40,587 bases of DNA, taken from positions 1 through 40,587 of the forward strand of contig CAMUZL010000002.1 of NCBI GenBank assembly GCA_947165185.1, read 5' to 3'. The stretch is from an uncultured Selenomonadales bacterium (GTDB lineage Bacteria > Bacillota > Negativicutes > Selenomonadales > Selenomonadaceae). The position numbers and the translations under genes were made by a program. The notes below the pieces were generated by a model, which saw only the letters and a list, made by a program, of their open reading frames with translations, searched no databases and was not told where the DNA came from. Below, one piece after another: positions 9,113-40,375 of this stretch; the stretch's first letter is position 1, and each line of letters begins with the position of its first letter.

Positions 9113-10063
9113 ATGAGACTGACCTCAATCCTCGTCGAATGGAATCCACTAAAGTATATCGGAATTTTAATCGGGTGCCTTATTGCCGCGTGCTCAATAA
9201 ATTTGTTCGTCGTGCCGAGCAGTTTGTTGACGGGCGGCGTCACGGGTATTGCGATTATTTTTTATTTCCTAACGGGCTTGCCGATCGGTCTTCAAACGCT
9301 GATTTACAATGTGCCGCTGTTAATTGCGTCGTACAAACTTCTGGGCAAAAAATATACGCTCGACGTTGTAATCGGCACGATAATGTTTTCGTTCGCGCTG
9401 GACGCCACAAAATTTCTTAACGGCATGTTGCCCGTTGATGAAATGATGCTTGCGTCGATTTACGGCGGAATTTTCAACGGCATCGGTTACGGCATAGTTT
9501 TTCGCATGAACGGTTCGACGGGCGGTTTCGACATCCTCGGCGCGATTTTCAAAAAATATTACTCGATGGAAATCGGCTCCGTTATTTTCGGCTTCAACTG
9601 TTTAATCGTCGCGGTTGCGGGCGTAATCTTCAACATTCAAAGCGCAATGTTTACGCTGATTTGCATGTATGTCACGTCGCAAATGACGAACAAAGTTATC
9701 GACGGCTTCAATCAGCGCAAGGCGATTTTGATTATCTCCGACAAGGCAAAAGACATTGCCGACGGGATTATTGCCGACTTGGGGCGCGGCGTCACTTTCC
9801 TCAACGGCGAAGGCGCATACACGGGCGAGCCGAAAAAAATTGTCATGGTCGTCGTGAGCATGACGCAAATCGCCAAAATAAAAATTATCGCCAACACGGT
9901 TGACAAAGGCGCATTTATGCTGATACTTTCGGCAAGCGAAGTTGTCGGGCGCGGCTTCACCAGTCCGACGCGGCAAAATGTCAAATTCCGCAAAGGCAAC
10001 GCGATTAATCCGGAAATCGAGCAACAGATTCAAGACGCTCTTGCTCACAAAGGCGAAGATTAG
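9113..10063 (+). CDS. YitT family membrane protein with C-terminal DUF2179 domain
   Basis: 316 residues. The first 190 or so hold five to six hydrophobic helices with the family's FVVPSSLLTGGVTGIA and MNGSTGGFDILGAI motifs (the YitT/DUF161 membrane domain). The last 90 residues are the soluble DUF2179 domain (GRGVTFLNGEGAYTGEPKK). Members are common in Firmicutes; their function remains unclear although a transport role is usually assumed. The ATG at 9113 is the first after a strong GGAGG at 9095-9099, although the 13-bp spacing is long; an ATG at 9086 lacks any ribosome site. It is transcribed alone. Confidence 0.9.
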   Translation: MRLTSILVEWNPLKYIGILIGCLIAACSINLFVVPSSLLTGGVTGIAIIFYFLTGLPIGLQTLIYNVPLLIASYKLLGKKYTLDVVIGTIMFSFALDATKFLNGMLPVDEMMLASIYGGIFNGIGYGIVFRMNGSTGGFDILGAIFKKYYSMEIGSVIFGFNCLIVAVAGVIFNIQSAMFTLICMYVTSQMTNKVIDGFNQRKAILIISDKAKDIADGIIADLGRGVTFLNGEGAYTGEPKKIVMVVVSMTQIAKIKIIANTVDKGAFMLILSASEVVGRGFTSPTRQNVKFRKGNAINPEIEQQIQDALAHKGED

Positions 10064-10125
10064 GGACTAGGGACTAGGGACTAGTTTACTCGTTCCTACT
10101 AATTCTCCAGTCCCCAGTCCCTACA
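10061..10125 (+). repeat. GGGACTAG-type intergenic repeat, copy 1
   Basis: Three tandem GGACTAG units directly after the YitT stop can pair imperfectly with CCAGTCCCCAGTCCCT about 30 bp downstream, forming a long hairpin. Related sequences occur at 22905-22958 and 28968-29030. It may also end yitT transcription, but no U-tract follows. Confidence 0.65.
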
Positions 10126-20796: not shown

Positions 20797-20878
20797 GACG
20801 CGCAGATTTTAGCTTGTAGCTTGAAGCTTTTAGCTTTTAGCGGTTAGTTGTTGACGAAAAAAAAGACGCGCAGATTTT
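20797..20878. repeat. Short direct repeats between alsT and bamA
   Basis: GACGCGCAGATTTT occurs twice (20797-20810 and 20865-20878), each after an A-run. Between them lie AGCTT-type units ending AGCTTTTAGCTTTTAGCGG; a near copy of that unit occurs in reverse at about 32264-32281. Confidence 0.6.
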
Positions 20879-22904: not shown

Positions 22905-22958
22905 AAGGGACAAGGGAAAAGGGACAAGGGACAAGTTTGTAGTTCCTATTCCCTAGAA
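22905..22958 (-). repeat. GGGACTAG-type intergenic repeat, copy 2
   Basis: On the plus strand it contains repeated GGGACAAG units followed by TAGTTCCTATTCCCTAG. It fills the gap between the tamB stop and the bamA ribosome site and can fold into an imperfect hairpin. Confidence 0.55.
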
Positions 22959-28967: not shown

Positions 28968-29030
28968 TAGGGACTAGGGACTAGTAGGGATTAGTAAACT
29001 ATTTACTAGTTCCTATTTACTAGTTCCTAA
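28968..29030 (-). repeat. GGGACTAG-type intergenic repeat, copy 3
   Basis: GGGACTAGGGACTAGTAGGG followed by a TAGTAAACTATTTACTA palindrome and two TAGTTCCTA units. It fills the gap between the RND pump stop and the tolC ribosome site. Confidence 0.6.
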
Positions 29031-29031
29031 T

Positions 29032-32000
29032 TTATTTTGCCGTCGCCGGTTGATTGGCGTCCGAAGTTTTTTTGCCAAAAAGTTTTTCAACAATTACCTG
29101 CACAACGACGAAGAACACGGGGATTAAAAATATTCCCAGCGCGGTTGCAACCGTCATTCCGCCGACGACCGCGACGCCCATTGAGTTACGAGCCGCCGAG
29201 CCTGCGCCCGAAGCCGTCGCCAAGGGAACGCAACCGATGATGAACGCGAACGAAGTCATCAAAATCGGGCGAAGTCGCAAGCCCGCCGATTCAAGCGCGG
29301 CTTTGATAGCGTCCATGCCTTTATCGGTGCGAACTTTGGCGAATTCGACAATCAAAATCGCATTCTTCGCGGCAAGCCCCATAATCATGATAACGCCGAC
29401 TTGCATGTAAATGCTGTTTTGAAAACCGGGGTTGCCGACGCCGAAAGTGTTCGTGTAATAATTCAAGATGAATTCGGAAGCGAGCGCGCCGAAAATTCCT
29501 GTCGGGACAGTCATCAAAACGGAGAACGGCACCGACCAACTTTCGTACAGCGCGGCGAGACACAGGAACACGAAAATCAAAGCCAACGCCATAACTTGTC
29601 CCGTGGAGCCGGAAGCTTTTGCCTCTTCGCGGGATTGTCCCGACCACTCGACGCCGAAGCCCGTCGGCGCAACTTGGTAAACGACTTCAGTCAAAGCTTG
29701 CATTGCTTGCCCCGAAGAATAACCGTCGGCGGGTTGCCCCTGAATCAAAACGGAGCGTTTGCCGTTAAAGCGCGTGACTTGAAGCGTGCCCGTGTTGAGC
29801 TTGTGACTGATAAGCGTGTCAAGCGGAACGGCTTGCCCGTTGGAGCCTTTGACGAACATAAATTTCAGCATGTCGATTTCACTGCGAAAGTAAACGTCGG
29901 ATTGCATGACGACTTTGTAAGTGCGCCCGAATCTGTCATAGTCATCAACCTGCATACCGCCGAAATTAACCTGCAAGGCGGAGTACACGTCCGAAAGTTG
30001 CACGCCGAGCATCTCAATTTTTTGCTGGTCAATTTCATATTTGTAACTGGGCGAAGTGACGCTGAAAGTAGTGGAGACGCCCTGCAATTCGGGACGAGCA
30101 TTAGCCGCGTTGACGATTTTATCTGTGATGTCGGAAAGGTCTTCGTCGGAATGACTTTCCTGGTCAATCAGTTGCATAGTCAAGCCGCCGACCGCGCCAA
30201 GCCCGGGCAGAGCGGGAGGATTGAAGCCCATAACGAACGCCTCAGGAGCGACGCCGTTACCGACCATGAAAACATTTTGGATAGCGGAATTAGCCGACAG
30301 CGCGGGGTCAGTGCGCTCAGCCCACGGGTACATACTGAAAAACAAAGTAGCCGCCGAAGATTTCGTGCCGCCGGAAACGACGTTGTAACCTGCGATAGAA
30401 ATAACGTCTTTGATACCCGGAACTTTATCGCGAATCGCCGCCGCAACTTTATCGGTAGTAACGGACGTGCGGTTAAGTGACGTGCCTTCGGGCAACATAA
30501 CCGCCGCCATAAAATAGCCTTGGTCTTCGTCGGGCACGAACGTCGAAGGCAAAACTTTAAAGAGCCACCCCGTCAAGCCGCAGACGATGAGCAAGAAAAT
30601 AATCGCGAGTTTTGAGGCGGAAACAGCTTTGGCGACAATGCCGACATAAGAATTTTTCGTGCGCTCGAACCAGTTGTTAAACGCGTCAAAGAATTTGTCG
30701 AAGATATTTTTCTTGTGATTCGGATCATGCGGTTTCAAAATCATAGCGCACAATGCCGGCGTCAAAGTCAACGCGACGAACGCCGACAGAGCCATTGACA
30801 CGGCGATAGTCAGCGCGAATTGCCGATATAAAATGCCCGTCATACCGCCGAGAAATGCAATCGGGATAAAGACAGCCGACAAGACGAACGCAATGGCGAC
30901 AACGGGGCCTTGAACTTCAGCCATAGCGACTTCGGTTGCCTCGACGGGATTAAGTCCGCGCTCCATGTGCTGTTCGACGTTTTCAATAACGACAATGGCG
31001 TCGTCGACGACAAGCCCGATAGCCAAAACCATCGCGAACAGTGTCAGCGTGTTAATCGTGAATCCCAAGACGGTGAACGCCGCGAACGTTCCCAAAAGCG
31101 ACACGGGCACGGCAAGCAGCGGGATAACCGTAGCGCGCCAACTTTGCAGGAAGATAAAAATAACCAGCACGACAAGTACGAGTGCTTCAAAAAATGTGTG
31201 CGCGACCTCTTCCATTGAGGCGGTGATAAAGCGCGTGTTGTCCAAAATTTGACCGTAATGCATACCTTCGGGCAGATTTTTTTCCGCCGCCGCAAGAATT
31301 CTTTTGACTTCGCCGACGGATTCAAGGGCGTTGGCGTCCGAAGTCAGATTGATTATGAACGGCACGGAGGCATAGCCGTTGAATTTGCCGACGTAAGTGT
31401 TTGATTTCTGACCGATTTCGACGCGGGCAACATCTTTCAAGCGCACGAACGCGCCCGCGCTGCCGGTCTTCAAAATGATATTCTCGAATTGTTCGGGCGT
31501 TTCAAGGCGTCCCTGAATTTGTCCCATGTACTCTTTTTCTTGCCCTTGAGCGACGGGAAGTTTACCGATTGAGCCTGCCGCCGCTTGAGCGTTTTGAGTT
31601 CGTATGGCGGCCTGCACGTCAGCAACCGTCAAGCCGAAGTTCGCCAATTTTTCGGGATTAATCCACACGCGCAGGGCATAATCGGCACTCATGACTTGAA
31701 CTTGACCGACGCCCTTGACGCGTTTCAAATCGTCCGCGACGTAAATGTCCGCGTAATTTTTTATAAATGCAGTGTCATAAAGCCCGTTGTCGCAGTAAAA
31801 AGCAAAAACCATCGCCATATCTTGCGACGATTTTGTTGTCGTGACGCCCGACGATACCACGGTTTCGGGCAAGTTGGCGTTGGCGGCGGAGACGTTATTT
31901 TGAACTTTGACGCTGTCCATGTCGCCATCAGAGCCGACCTCGAAATAAACATTGAGCGAATAACTTCCGTCGTCGTTTGAATTTGAAGTCATATAGTCCA

Positions 32001-37530: not shown

Positions 37531-37559
37531 TTGACAGCAACGAATCAATCATTTAAAAT
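37531..37559 (+). promoter_or_regulatory. Promoter of the lytic transglycosylase gene
   Basis: TTGACA (37531-37536), 17 bp, TAAAAT (37554-37559). Confidence 0.8.
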
Positions 37560-37591
37560 TCAGTTAATTAATCGGCGCGGAGGTGAATTGC

Positions 37592-38224
37592 TTGCAAAAA
37601 AAATTTTTGAAAATCTGCGCGGCACTTGTCGCGATATATTTTTTGATAAGCCTGCCCGTCGTTCAGAAAAAATTTTTGTACCCGTTCCCGTACCGCACGA
37701 CCGTCGAAGATTATTCGGCTCGCTGGCAAGTCGACAAATTTTTGACAATCGCCGTGATGAAAGTCGAAAGTAATTTTTCCGAGGCGGCACGCTCCCAAAG
37801 CGGGGCTGTCGGCTTGATGCAAATCATGCCCGAAACTGCCGCGTGGATTGCCTATCAGCTGAACGAGACGCCCGAAGAATTTGACTGCGACATAAAAAAT
37901 CTGCGCGAACCCGAAACGAATATCCGCTACGGCACGTGGTATCTCGCCGAGCTTGAAGACGAATTCAACGGCAACGACGTTTTGGCTTTGGCGGCCTACA
38001 ACGCCGGGCGCGGCAACGTTCGCGAATGGATGGCGAAAAATAATTGGGACGAAAATTTTTCCGACATCGACAAAATTCCTTACGCCGAAACCCGCGATTA
38101 CGTCAAGCGCGTACTTCACTGCCGCGAAAAATACGCCAAACTTTACGGCACGAACGATTTTGTTTCGACGCCCATTGCCTTACACGAATTGCGTTTCGCC
38201 CGACTGAAAAATCTTTCACTGTAA
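37592..38224 (+). CDS. Lytic transglycosylase, SLT domain
   Basis: 210 residues from a TTG start at 37592; GGAGG lies 8 bp upstream, whereas the GTG at 37583 overlaps that site. An N-terminal helix (ICAALVAIYFLISLPVV) anchors the protein in the inner membrane. The transglycosylase domain has the catalytic glutamate E59 in VMKVESNFSEAARS, then GAVGLMQIMPETA, the NIRYGTWYLAEL segment and ALAAYNAGRGNV. It cleaves peptidoglycan glycan strands to 1,6-anhydro ends and helps insertion of envelope machines. Transcribed alone and divergently from the envelope operon. Confidence 0.92.
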   Translation: MQKKFLKICAALVAIYFLISLPVVQKKFLYPFPYRTTVEDYSARWQVDKFLTIAVMKVESNFSEAARSQSGAVGLMQIMPETAAWIAYQLNETPEEFDCDIKNLREPETNIRYGTWYLAELEDEFNGNDVLALAAYNAGRGNVREWMAKNNWDENFSDIDKIPYAETRDYVKRVLHCREKYAKLYGTNDFVSTPIALHELRFARLKNLSL

Positions 38225-38236
38225 AATTTCATAATG

Positions 38237-38273
38237 AAAACTTCCGTTGACAAACATCGCGGAAGTTTTTTTG
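38237..38273 (+). terminator. Terminator after the lytic transglycosylase
   Basis: Stem AAAACTTCCG/CGGAAGTTTT with a 13-base loop and T-run, 12 bp after the stop. Confidence 0.85.
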
Positions 38274-38295
38274 TGCAAAAAATTTTCAAAAAGTC

Positions 38296-38326
38296 TTGAC
38301 AACACGGTTTAGGGGGGGGGTAAAAT
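38296..38326 (+). promoter_or_regulatory. Promoter with a G9 tract between -35 and -10 (candidate phase-variable)
   Basis: Consensus TTGACA (38296-38301) and TAAAAT (38321-38326) are 19 bp apart, and the last nine bases of the spacer (38312-38320) are all G. Loss of two G residues would give the ideal 17-bp spacing. Such homopolymers slip during replication and switch promoters on and off in other bacteria, for example in Neisseria. Confidence 0.8.
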
Positions 38327-38362
38327 AAGTGGGAAATTACAGTTTTGAAAGGAGCGATTGTT

Positions 38363-38572
38363 ATGGATTGGGTTATGGATTGGGACGCCAAACACCCGTG
38401 CCCGAGTTGCGGCAAAGAACACGAGGAACGCGAAATGCTCAACAAGTGCACGAACTGCGGACAAATTTATTGCGGCGATTATCGTTGCAGCGGTCAGGGT
38501 CAATGCCCCCGTTGCGGCAACAGCGGCGTGGTTCCCGTCGCGTGGGATCCGATTAACAGACGCTGGGGCTGA
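38363..38572 (+). CDS. Small cysteine-rich zinc-ribbon protein
   Basis: 69 residues from the ATG at 38363 (AAAGGAG 8 bp upstream). Eight cysteines fall into CPSC, CTNC, YC, RC and CPRC, consistent with two zinc ribbons (about 13-40 and 43-58). It ends in VAWDPINRRWG. No signal peptide or membrane helix is visible, so it is probably cytoplasmic. I do not recognise the family. First gene after the G9 promoter and probably cotranscribed with the two TPR genes. Confidence 0.75.
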   Translation: MDWVMDWDAKHPCPSCGKEHEEREMLNKCTNCGQIYCGDYRCSGQGQCPRCGNSGVVPVAWDPINRRWG

Positions 38573-38647: not shown

Positions 38648-39055
38648 ATGAATTCGGAAGCTGAAAAAAATTTTAATTCGAGATTGGCTCAATGCAACCA
38701 ACTTTTGACGTCGGCGAACGAACATTTTAATCAAAAGCAGTTCGACCAAGCCATCAAAGATTTTACGAAAGTCATCATGTTTGCCCCGAATTTTGAAGAG
38801 GAAGCCGACAAAAGCGGAGTTCCCGCCGAAATTCGCGGAATCTACATAGATGCCATACAGTCGGCTTATGCCGGACGCGCCGCCTCGTATCTTTCCATCG
38901 GCGAAAAAACGAAATACGAAGCCGATTTTAAAATGAGCCAAAAATTGTTGAGCGACAAATCTTCCTTGAGACAAAGCGTGAGCGACGACGACGACTCCTG
39001 GGGTTATTGGATTATCGGTATCGTCGGATTTTTGGCATGGAAATTTTTTACCTGA
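38648..39055 (+). CDS. Small TPR protein with C-terminal membrane anchor
   Basis: 135 residues; TAAGGAGG lies 7 bp before the ATG. Residues about 10-100 are TPR-like helices (NEHFNQKQFDQAIKDFTKVI, YAGRAASYLSIGEKTKYEAD). An acidic stretch SDDDDS then leads to a single C-terminal hydrophobic helix (WIIGIVGFLAWKFF), so it looks tail-anchored with the TPR domain in the cytoplasm. Its TPR region is homologous to the first 110 residues of the next protein. Function unknown. Confidence 0.75.
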   Translation: MNSEAEKNFNSRLAQCNQLLTSANEHFNQKQFDQAIKDFTKVIMFAPNFEEEADKSGVPAEIRGIYIDAIQSAYAGRAASYLSIGEKTKYEADFKMSQKLLSDKSSLRQSVSDDDDSWGYWIIGIVGFLAWKFFT

Positions 39056-39077: not shown

Positions 39078-40322
39078 ATGGCTTTTTATATTGACTTGAA
39101 CGAGTTAAACGCGGGCATTTTGGAATGTGAGCAACTTGCGAAATCCGCCGGTCTTCATACAGAACGAAAAGAACACAATTTGGCAATTCAAGATTTAACG
39201 CGGATAATTGAACTCGTCACGAAATTGAGTCCGATGTTTTCTGCCAAAGGCGAAAGCTTGGATGTCAAACTCGCCGAAGTGTACAAAGAACCGTACATGG
39301 CTCATCTGAAATTGGCTTATGCTACGCGGTACAAGCTGTATTTTGACATTGGCGAAAAAGCGAAAAGCGACGCCGATTGGGCAATGTGCCGAAAGTTGGG
39401 AGTCAACCTTCCCGTACTGAACACGCCGAATAAACAGGACGACGATAGCATTTTGACTGATTCTGTTACGACGCCTGCGAAAAAATTTCCGTCGGTTGCA
39501 AACGTGAATGAATACCAAAAATTGGCAGACCAAGCATTTGCGTCCGATAATTACGAAGAAGCCATAGTCTATTGCGACAAAGCTTTGGAGCAGGAGCAGC
39601 ATAATTGGATTGCGATGTTGACTAAGGCGCAGGCTATCGGATTTTTGGCAACACCGGAAAATTCACGGGGCACCTTGAATGGCACCAATACAAATTCAGT
39701 TCTGTTCAAATCGTTCACGTGGTTTCAAAAGGCGCAAATTACCTACGTTGAAAACTTCGAGGAAATAAACTCGTCGGGTAAAGAGTTCGACCCCGATTTT
39801 ATAACATGGAGCCAAGCTGTCTATCAGGCCTCAGTGTTTATGGTAGTTGACAATTTTGAAGGCAAGATACCGAGCACAGATTCAACGCAAAAAAAATTTT
39901 TGTCGTGGACAGAGCTTATTCCGTTGTATGTTCTTCTGCTTTCAGTAGACCCCGATACCGCAGATGACATTGAAAAGGAACAACTTCGGGACAGCGCGCA
40001 ACGTTTTAGAAACAAATTCAGCACATTTTTTGAGTCGTATGATGCCTGCGATTTGATTCAGAAATATTTGCCCGAAGTCCGAGTTTGGCTCCATACTCTT
40101 AACCGCGCCGAAACAATTCTGAAGAGCTTTAACCCGAATTACAACAGCATTCTCGTCAGAATAAAAAATAGCACACTCATTGAGCTTGACGCCGGTCTTG
40201 CCGCAGAACTTGACAGCCACAAATCGCTCGTGTCGCAGAATTCGTTTAACTCGTCGCGAGGCTCCGGATGTTTGGGCGTAATCGTGTGCGTGATTATCGT
40301 AGCGTATTCACTTATCGCTTAA
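39078..40322 (+). CDS. Larger TPR protein with C-terminal membrane anchor
   Basis: 414 residues; AAGGGAG precedes the ATG. Residues 10-110 repeat the pattern of the preceding protein (LAIQDLTRIIEL, YKLYFDIGEKAKSDADWAMC). A second TPR-like part follows at 145-200 (YQKLADQAFASDNYEEAIVY). The region 200-380 is helical and matches nothing I know. The last 20 residues are hydrophobic (CLGVIVCVIIVAYSLIA), again a tail anchor. It sits 22 bp after its paralog. The pair plus the zinc-ribbon gene look like one functional unit of unknown role. Confidence 0.75.
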   Translation: MAFYIDLNELNAGILECEQLAKSAGLHTERKEHNLAIQDLTRIIELVTKLSPMFSAKGESLDVKLAEVYKEPYMAHLKLAYATRYKLYFDIGEKAKSDADWAMCRKLGVNLPVLNTPNKQDDDSILTDSVTTPAKKFPSVANVNEYQKLADQAFASDNYEEAIVYCDKALEQEQHNWIAMLTKAQAIGFLATPENSRGTLNGTNTNSVLFKSFTWFQKAQITYVENFEEINSSGKEFDPDFITWSQAVYQASVFMVVDNFEGKIPSTDSTQKKFLSWTELIPLYVLLLSVDPDTADDIEKEQLRDSAQRFRNKFSTFFESYDACDLIQKYLPEVRVWLHTLNRAETILKSFNPNYNSILVRIKNSTLIELDAGLAAELDSHKSLVSQNSFNSSRGSGCLGVIVCVIIVAYSLIA

Positions 40323-40336
40323 AAAATTCTGCAATT

Positions 40337-40375
40337 AAAAACCTCCGCAGTCAGTTGACCGCGAAGGCTTTTTTA
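40337..40375. terminator. Terminator shared by the TPR operon and the converging partial gene
   Basis: CCTCCGC/GCGAAGG stem with one mismatch, A-run on the left and T-run on the right, lying between two converging genes. Confidence 0.6.

Follow-up and report, generated by a model that had tools for sequence, protein, structure and literature searches.

A G tract in the promoter spacer of a zinc-ribbon/TPR operon is a probable phase-variation switch of a design that recurs in a genus of rumen Selenomonadaceae

This work describes a promoter with a run of nine G residues between its -35 and -10 elements, located upstream of a three-gene zinc-ribbon/TPR operon of an uncultured Selenomonadaceae bacterium. 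We consider it probable (roughly 85%, for both statements jointly) that this is a sigma-A/sigma-70-type promoter with its -35/-10 spacing set by a slippable G tract, and that the operon is phase-variable at the transcription level through this tract. The design recurs at dozens of promoters, which points to a random on/off switch acting via run-length changes of one or two bases. The window, i.e. the whole stretch of 40,587 bases analysed here, is contig C2 of the source assembly (G000; 285 contigs, 71% complete).

All promoter elements lie on the forward strand. The -35 element TTGACA (38296-38301) is followed by a 19-bp spacer, ACACGGTTTA-GGGGGGGGG (38302-38320), which ends in the G9 tract, the proposed variable element (38312-38320), and the -10 element TAAAAT (38321-38326) abuts this tract. 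The ribosome-binding site AAAGGAG (38348-38354) lies 8 nt before the ATG at 38363. The initial annotation had described TTGACA and TAAAAT flanking a 19-bp spacer that ends in nine G, together with a good ribosome site before the next gene; all of these are present at the positions it gave, and the span that it delimited (38281-38362) correctly takes in the promoter and leader. Its claim that such a run is not expected by chance also holds, as 0.005 G runs of nine or more bases are expected under a first-order model of the window and G9 is the sole G run longer than five bases in it. The tract reaches the length that permits slippage (from about 8 bases upwards) and is placed between the -35 and -10 elements. 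TAAAAT also ends a promoter-like site with a 17-bp spacer at 37531-37559, found in a consensus scan of the window.

The upstream gene encodes a lytic transglycosylase (SLT domain; 37583..38224, forward strand; Pfam PF01464, E 2.5e-32) and lies outside the switched unit. It is likely closed by an intrinsic-terminator-like hairpin (38236..38270, forward strand; fold -14.5 kcal/mol, z -4.0, then a T-run) that is absent from the output of a consensus terminator scan. Because this hairpin precedes the promoter at 38296-38326, a separate transcription unit probably begins there. The three genes that follow are all on the forward strand. Gene 1 (38363..38572) encodes a 69-aa double zinc-ribbon-like protein with paired CxxC motifs, whose Pfam matches to zinc-ribbon models are sub-threshold only. 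Genes 2 (38648..39055) and 3 (39078..40322; 414 aa) both encode TPR proteins that have a hydrophobic segment at the C-terminus. The Pfam TPR_1 match has E 1.1e-6 for gene 2 and E 4.8e-5 for gene 3, where it falls short of the gathering score; the N-terminal part of the gene 3 protein is 36% identical to gene 2. A further terminator-like hairpin lies 3' of gene 3 (40337..40373, forward strand; fold -12.0 kcal/mol, z -2.6), and a three-gene unit is plausible because the two hairpins bracket genes 1-3. Searches of Pfam, NCBIfam and PADLOC placed the operon proteins in no family beyond generic zinc-ribbon and TPR, and the operon was rejected as a known anti-phage defence system since its three proteins gave no PADLOC or NCBIfam match.

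A perfect 12-bp tandem duplication, GTTATGGATTGG (38360-38384), lies over the start codon of gene 1, resulting in two in-frame ATGs (38363 and 38375) and the protein start MDWVMDWD; relatives of gene 1 begin with MGWTDKHP or MSWNDKHP, without the duplication. Short tandem repeats of 7 bp and 14 bp are located in the window at 10061-10084, 20810-20841, 22905-22935 and 28999-29034.

Genome-wide counts were obtained by pattern searches. Seven G/C runs of nine or more bases were found in the source genome, three of which form TTGACA-N9/10-G9/10/11-TAWAAT promoters, i.e. the promoter in the window and two further ones, TTGACA-N9-G10-TAAAAT on contig C242 and TTGACA-N9-G11-TATAAT on contig C93, which precede a TPR-type gene and a gene with acidic, RTX-like repeats, respectively. 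On contig C95, a C11 tract lies between TTGCGA and TAAAAT before a gene; another of the seven runs, on contig C11, is ambiguous. Two other long runs, within the reading frame of an ATPase-like gene (G000:C84:4993-5002) and near the start of a radical-SAM-like frame (G000:C176:3620-3630), possibly reflect translational phase variation.

The pattern TTGACA-N5..14-G7-N0..8-TAWAAT was searched in 66 genomes of the genus and matched 55 sites in 29 of them, with up to seven G-tract promoters per genome. The reversed pattern gave no matches in the same 66 genomes and a C-tract control pattern gave four, a large excess of G tracts over chance in promoter position. The G run mostly abuts the -10 element, and the distance from the -10 element to the likely start codon is 22-59 bp at most sites. 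Outside the genus, only 6/314 members of the class match, four of which are from one other genus of the family (29/66 versus 6/314, Fisher p 1.5e-19). Two contigs of genus members match Selenomonadaceae records from red deer and water buffalo rumen (300 bases compared). The four C-tract control matches (G054:C36:31274, G054:C38:19927, G061:C10:40427 and G076:C12:39076) themselves resemble slippable promoters.

A stricter pattern, applied more widely to species genomes, returned at least 116 stretches. Among the matches listed, the taxa are mainly gut Clostridia, Bacilli and Lachnospiraceae, and also include Treponema, Helicobacter and Streptococcus, the spacers of 17, 18, 19 and 20 bp number 9, 39, 51 and 21 (the pattern being limited to 17-20 bp), and the downstream families are diverse, with BspA-type leucine-rich repeats as the commonest (6/66). 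The taxonomic breadth of the design that the matches of this uncontrolled scan suggest is a lead.

Poly-G read artefacts occur, for example in two-colour sequencing, and the source genome is a fragmented metagenome assembly, so G9 might be an assembly or sequencing artefact, or else a chance run. We regard this as highly improbable, as G9 has unique sequence on both sides, 0.005 such runs are expected in the window, 55 sites share the placement between -35 and -10 against almost none for the controls, and the design is also present in named strains of other taxa. The recurrence refutes an artefact as explanation of the whole promoter class; the exact G count at 38312-38320 could be off by one.

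Across the genus sites, the tracts are 7-16 bases and the spacers 14-26 bp long, with a spacer mode of 19 bp (22/55). Tract-free CTTGACA..TATAAT promoters in four genus genomes have a mode of 17 bp, and the share of 17-bp spacers is 5/55 with and 15/31 without a G tract (p 9e-5, to be read with caution since the searches differed slightly in -10 and range limits and the sites are partly non-independent). Homologous promoters of a radical-SAM gene have spacers of 20, 18 and 19 bp and those of an AAA gene 16, 19 and 20 bp, and two near-identical promoters of genome G060 (193/197) differ at the tract, G10 versus G12. All of these length comparisons are between species or paralogs, and part of the differences is therefore ordinary divergence. 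A comparison of tract length among related genomes had been proposed as a check in the initial annotation; at the between-species level it agrees, with both tract and spacer lengths differing between homologous promoters. Likely phase variation, as first suggested for this locus, is thus supported by the 55-site recurrence, the near-zero controls and the homologue length differences, from which we infer the switching itself.

Relatives of gene 1 are found in four other genus genomes, with 60-72% identity for the close ones. The relative in G063 is preceded by TTGACA-N10-G9-TATAAT with a 19-bp spacer, that in G046 by an interrupted tract (G6AG3) with TATACT and a 20-bp spacer, and that in G002 by TTGACA and a TA repeat. 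In a divergent G046 copy, the tract position is occupied by a T run. The G075 copies sit close behind other genes and have no adjacent tract promoter. In G002, G046 and one of the G075 copies, the gene 1 relative is followed by a TPR-like gene. These operon relatives show no conservation in the non-G half of the spacer. Because they carry different slippable repeats in the same position, slippability is favoured over any one sequence or shape.

The tract could instead be structural and fixed, acting as a stiff G:C spacer that has its optimum at 19 bp or confers supercoiling sensitivity and does not slip frequently. Such an element would fit the sharp 19-bp mode in the genus, the 18-19 bp among the matches listed in the wider sample (limited to 17-20 bp) and the influence of spacer G+C content on the supercoiling response in E. 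coli (PMC8695583), but it is unlikely given the wide spread of tract (7-16) and spacer lengths (14-26 bp) across the genus sites, homologous promoters that differ in length, and relatives that swap G for TA or T runs, which are slippable, not stiff. Much less likely still is activation through spacer twisting by a regulator of the MerR family. The window promoter has its 19-bp spacer in common with the mer promoter, which is silent without its activator (PMC11049809), and low basal activity may be expected by analogy. However, mer has a symmetrical operator and an activator and neither is seen here: the dyad symmetry of the spacer is no higher than that of shuffled spacers, no merR-like gene lies beside the promoter among the neighbouring SLT, zinc-ribbon and TPR genes, and relatives do not share the non-G spacer half. 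MerR-type control is therefore disfavoured for lack of a palindrome.

In the proposed slippage mechanism, replication strand slippage at the G run would add or remove bases, so that the 19-bp spacer would shorten to 18 or 17 bp (stronger) or lengthen to 20 bp (weaker), and the changed spacer lengths would give mixed populations. Promoter-spacer slippage as such is already known. Expression of porA falls from 11G to 10G to 9G (PMC3639595), a TA repeat sets promoter spacing at hif (PMC3899988), and the mer promoter, the clearest precedent for a 19-bp spacer, is silent at 19 bp without activator, strong at 18 and 17 bp and weak at 16 bp (PMC11049809). The G9 form in the assembly is probably one of low expression, which would increase if the tract lost one or two G. 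An E. coli library built on consensus hexamers gave high expression at all spacer lengths of 15-19 bp, with 17-18 bp best (PMC8695583); because output was still high at 19 bp, the G9 promoter may be weakly active instead of silent. Another reading of the clustering at 19 bp is that G-tract promoters tolerate or favour this length, which would then be no resting off state. Of 31 genus genomes examined, 28 have MutS, by which mononucleotide slippage would be slowed and the switching rate may be moderate; missing mismatch repair was accordingly rejected as the cause of tract instability.

Among the closest known counterparts is porA of Neisseria meningitidis, likewise with a run of 9-11 G between -35 and -10, and graded expression might be expected here by analogy. 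Unlike porA, a single outer-membrane gene, there are up to seven such promoters per genome in Selenomonadaceae, with the G run mostly abutting the -10 element. A TA repeat sets the -35/-10 spacing of hifA/hifB in Haemophilus influenzae, and the G002 operon relative has a TA repeat in this position, but hifA/hifB is a bidirectional fimbrial promoter whereas the window promoter has one direction and a G run. The fetA (frpB) gene of N. meningitidis has a poly-C tract in its core promoter, and its expression is tuned by a mononucleotide tract as may hold for the genus; the fetA tract is C on the coding strand, whereas the genus has 55 G-tract sites against 4 with a C tract.

Beyond this operon, we give about even odds to a broader proposal. 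In it, a whole Selenomonadaceae genus of uncultured rumen bacteria has sets of promoter switches that share one design and act stochastically and independently of each other, with a typical resting spacer that is two bases too long (19 bp). Within populations, these switches would create diversity in RTX-repeat proteins, enzymes of peptide maturation and TPR/zinc-ribbon operons, and the design would be widespread in other gut Bacillota. We found no report of promoter-spacer slippage as a genus-wide switch set in rumen Selenomonadaceae and, in the literature searched, no paper on phase variation in this family. Most known cases of phase variation through promoter-spacer tracts come from a few pathogens, and here it would operate in uncultured commensals. 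If so, rumen bacteria would have the expression of their repeat-protein and peptide-modifying genes decided cell by cell, and assembled genomes would show only the commonest state. The recurrent 19-bp length poses the question of an off state or a G-tract optimum.

The genes downstream at recurrent loci are unrelated to one another. RTX calcium-binding repeats are present in 15 of 47 downstream proteins in the genus, radical-SAM domains in four, AAA domains in three and glycosyltransferase domains in two; that RTX genes are enriched is a judgement and not the outcome of a test against the genome background. Seven promoters in G060 (L192-L198) have another layout, TTGACAATT followed by a G run in mid-spacer and then TTTATAAT, and several of them precede large RTX-repeat genes. 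At L176, L207 and L211, G-tract promoters lie before an IetA-like AAA ATPase gene that is followed by several small genes. The G-tract-controlled AAA ATPase of G017 resembles IetA (PADLOC E 1e-39) but was rejected as IetAS, being far below the NCBIfam cut-off and followed by small genes with no protease-sized partner among those listed.

Poly-T tracts were also observed in TTGACA..TATAAT-type spacers, at G000:C162:2390-2416, G016:C69:179411-179441 and G063:C1:113641-113673 (spacers of 14, 18 and 20 bp, respectively) and at L238, possibly representing a second class of slippable promoters.
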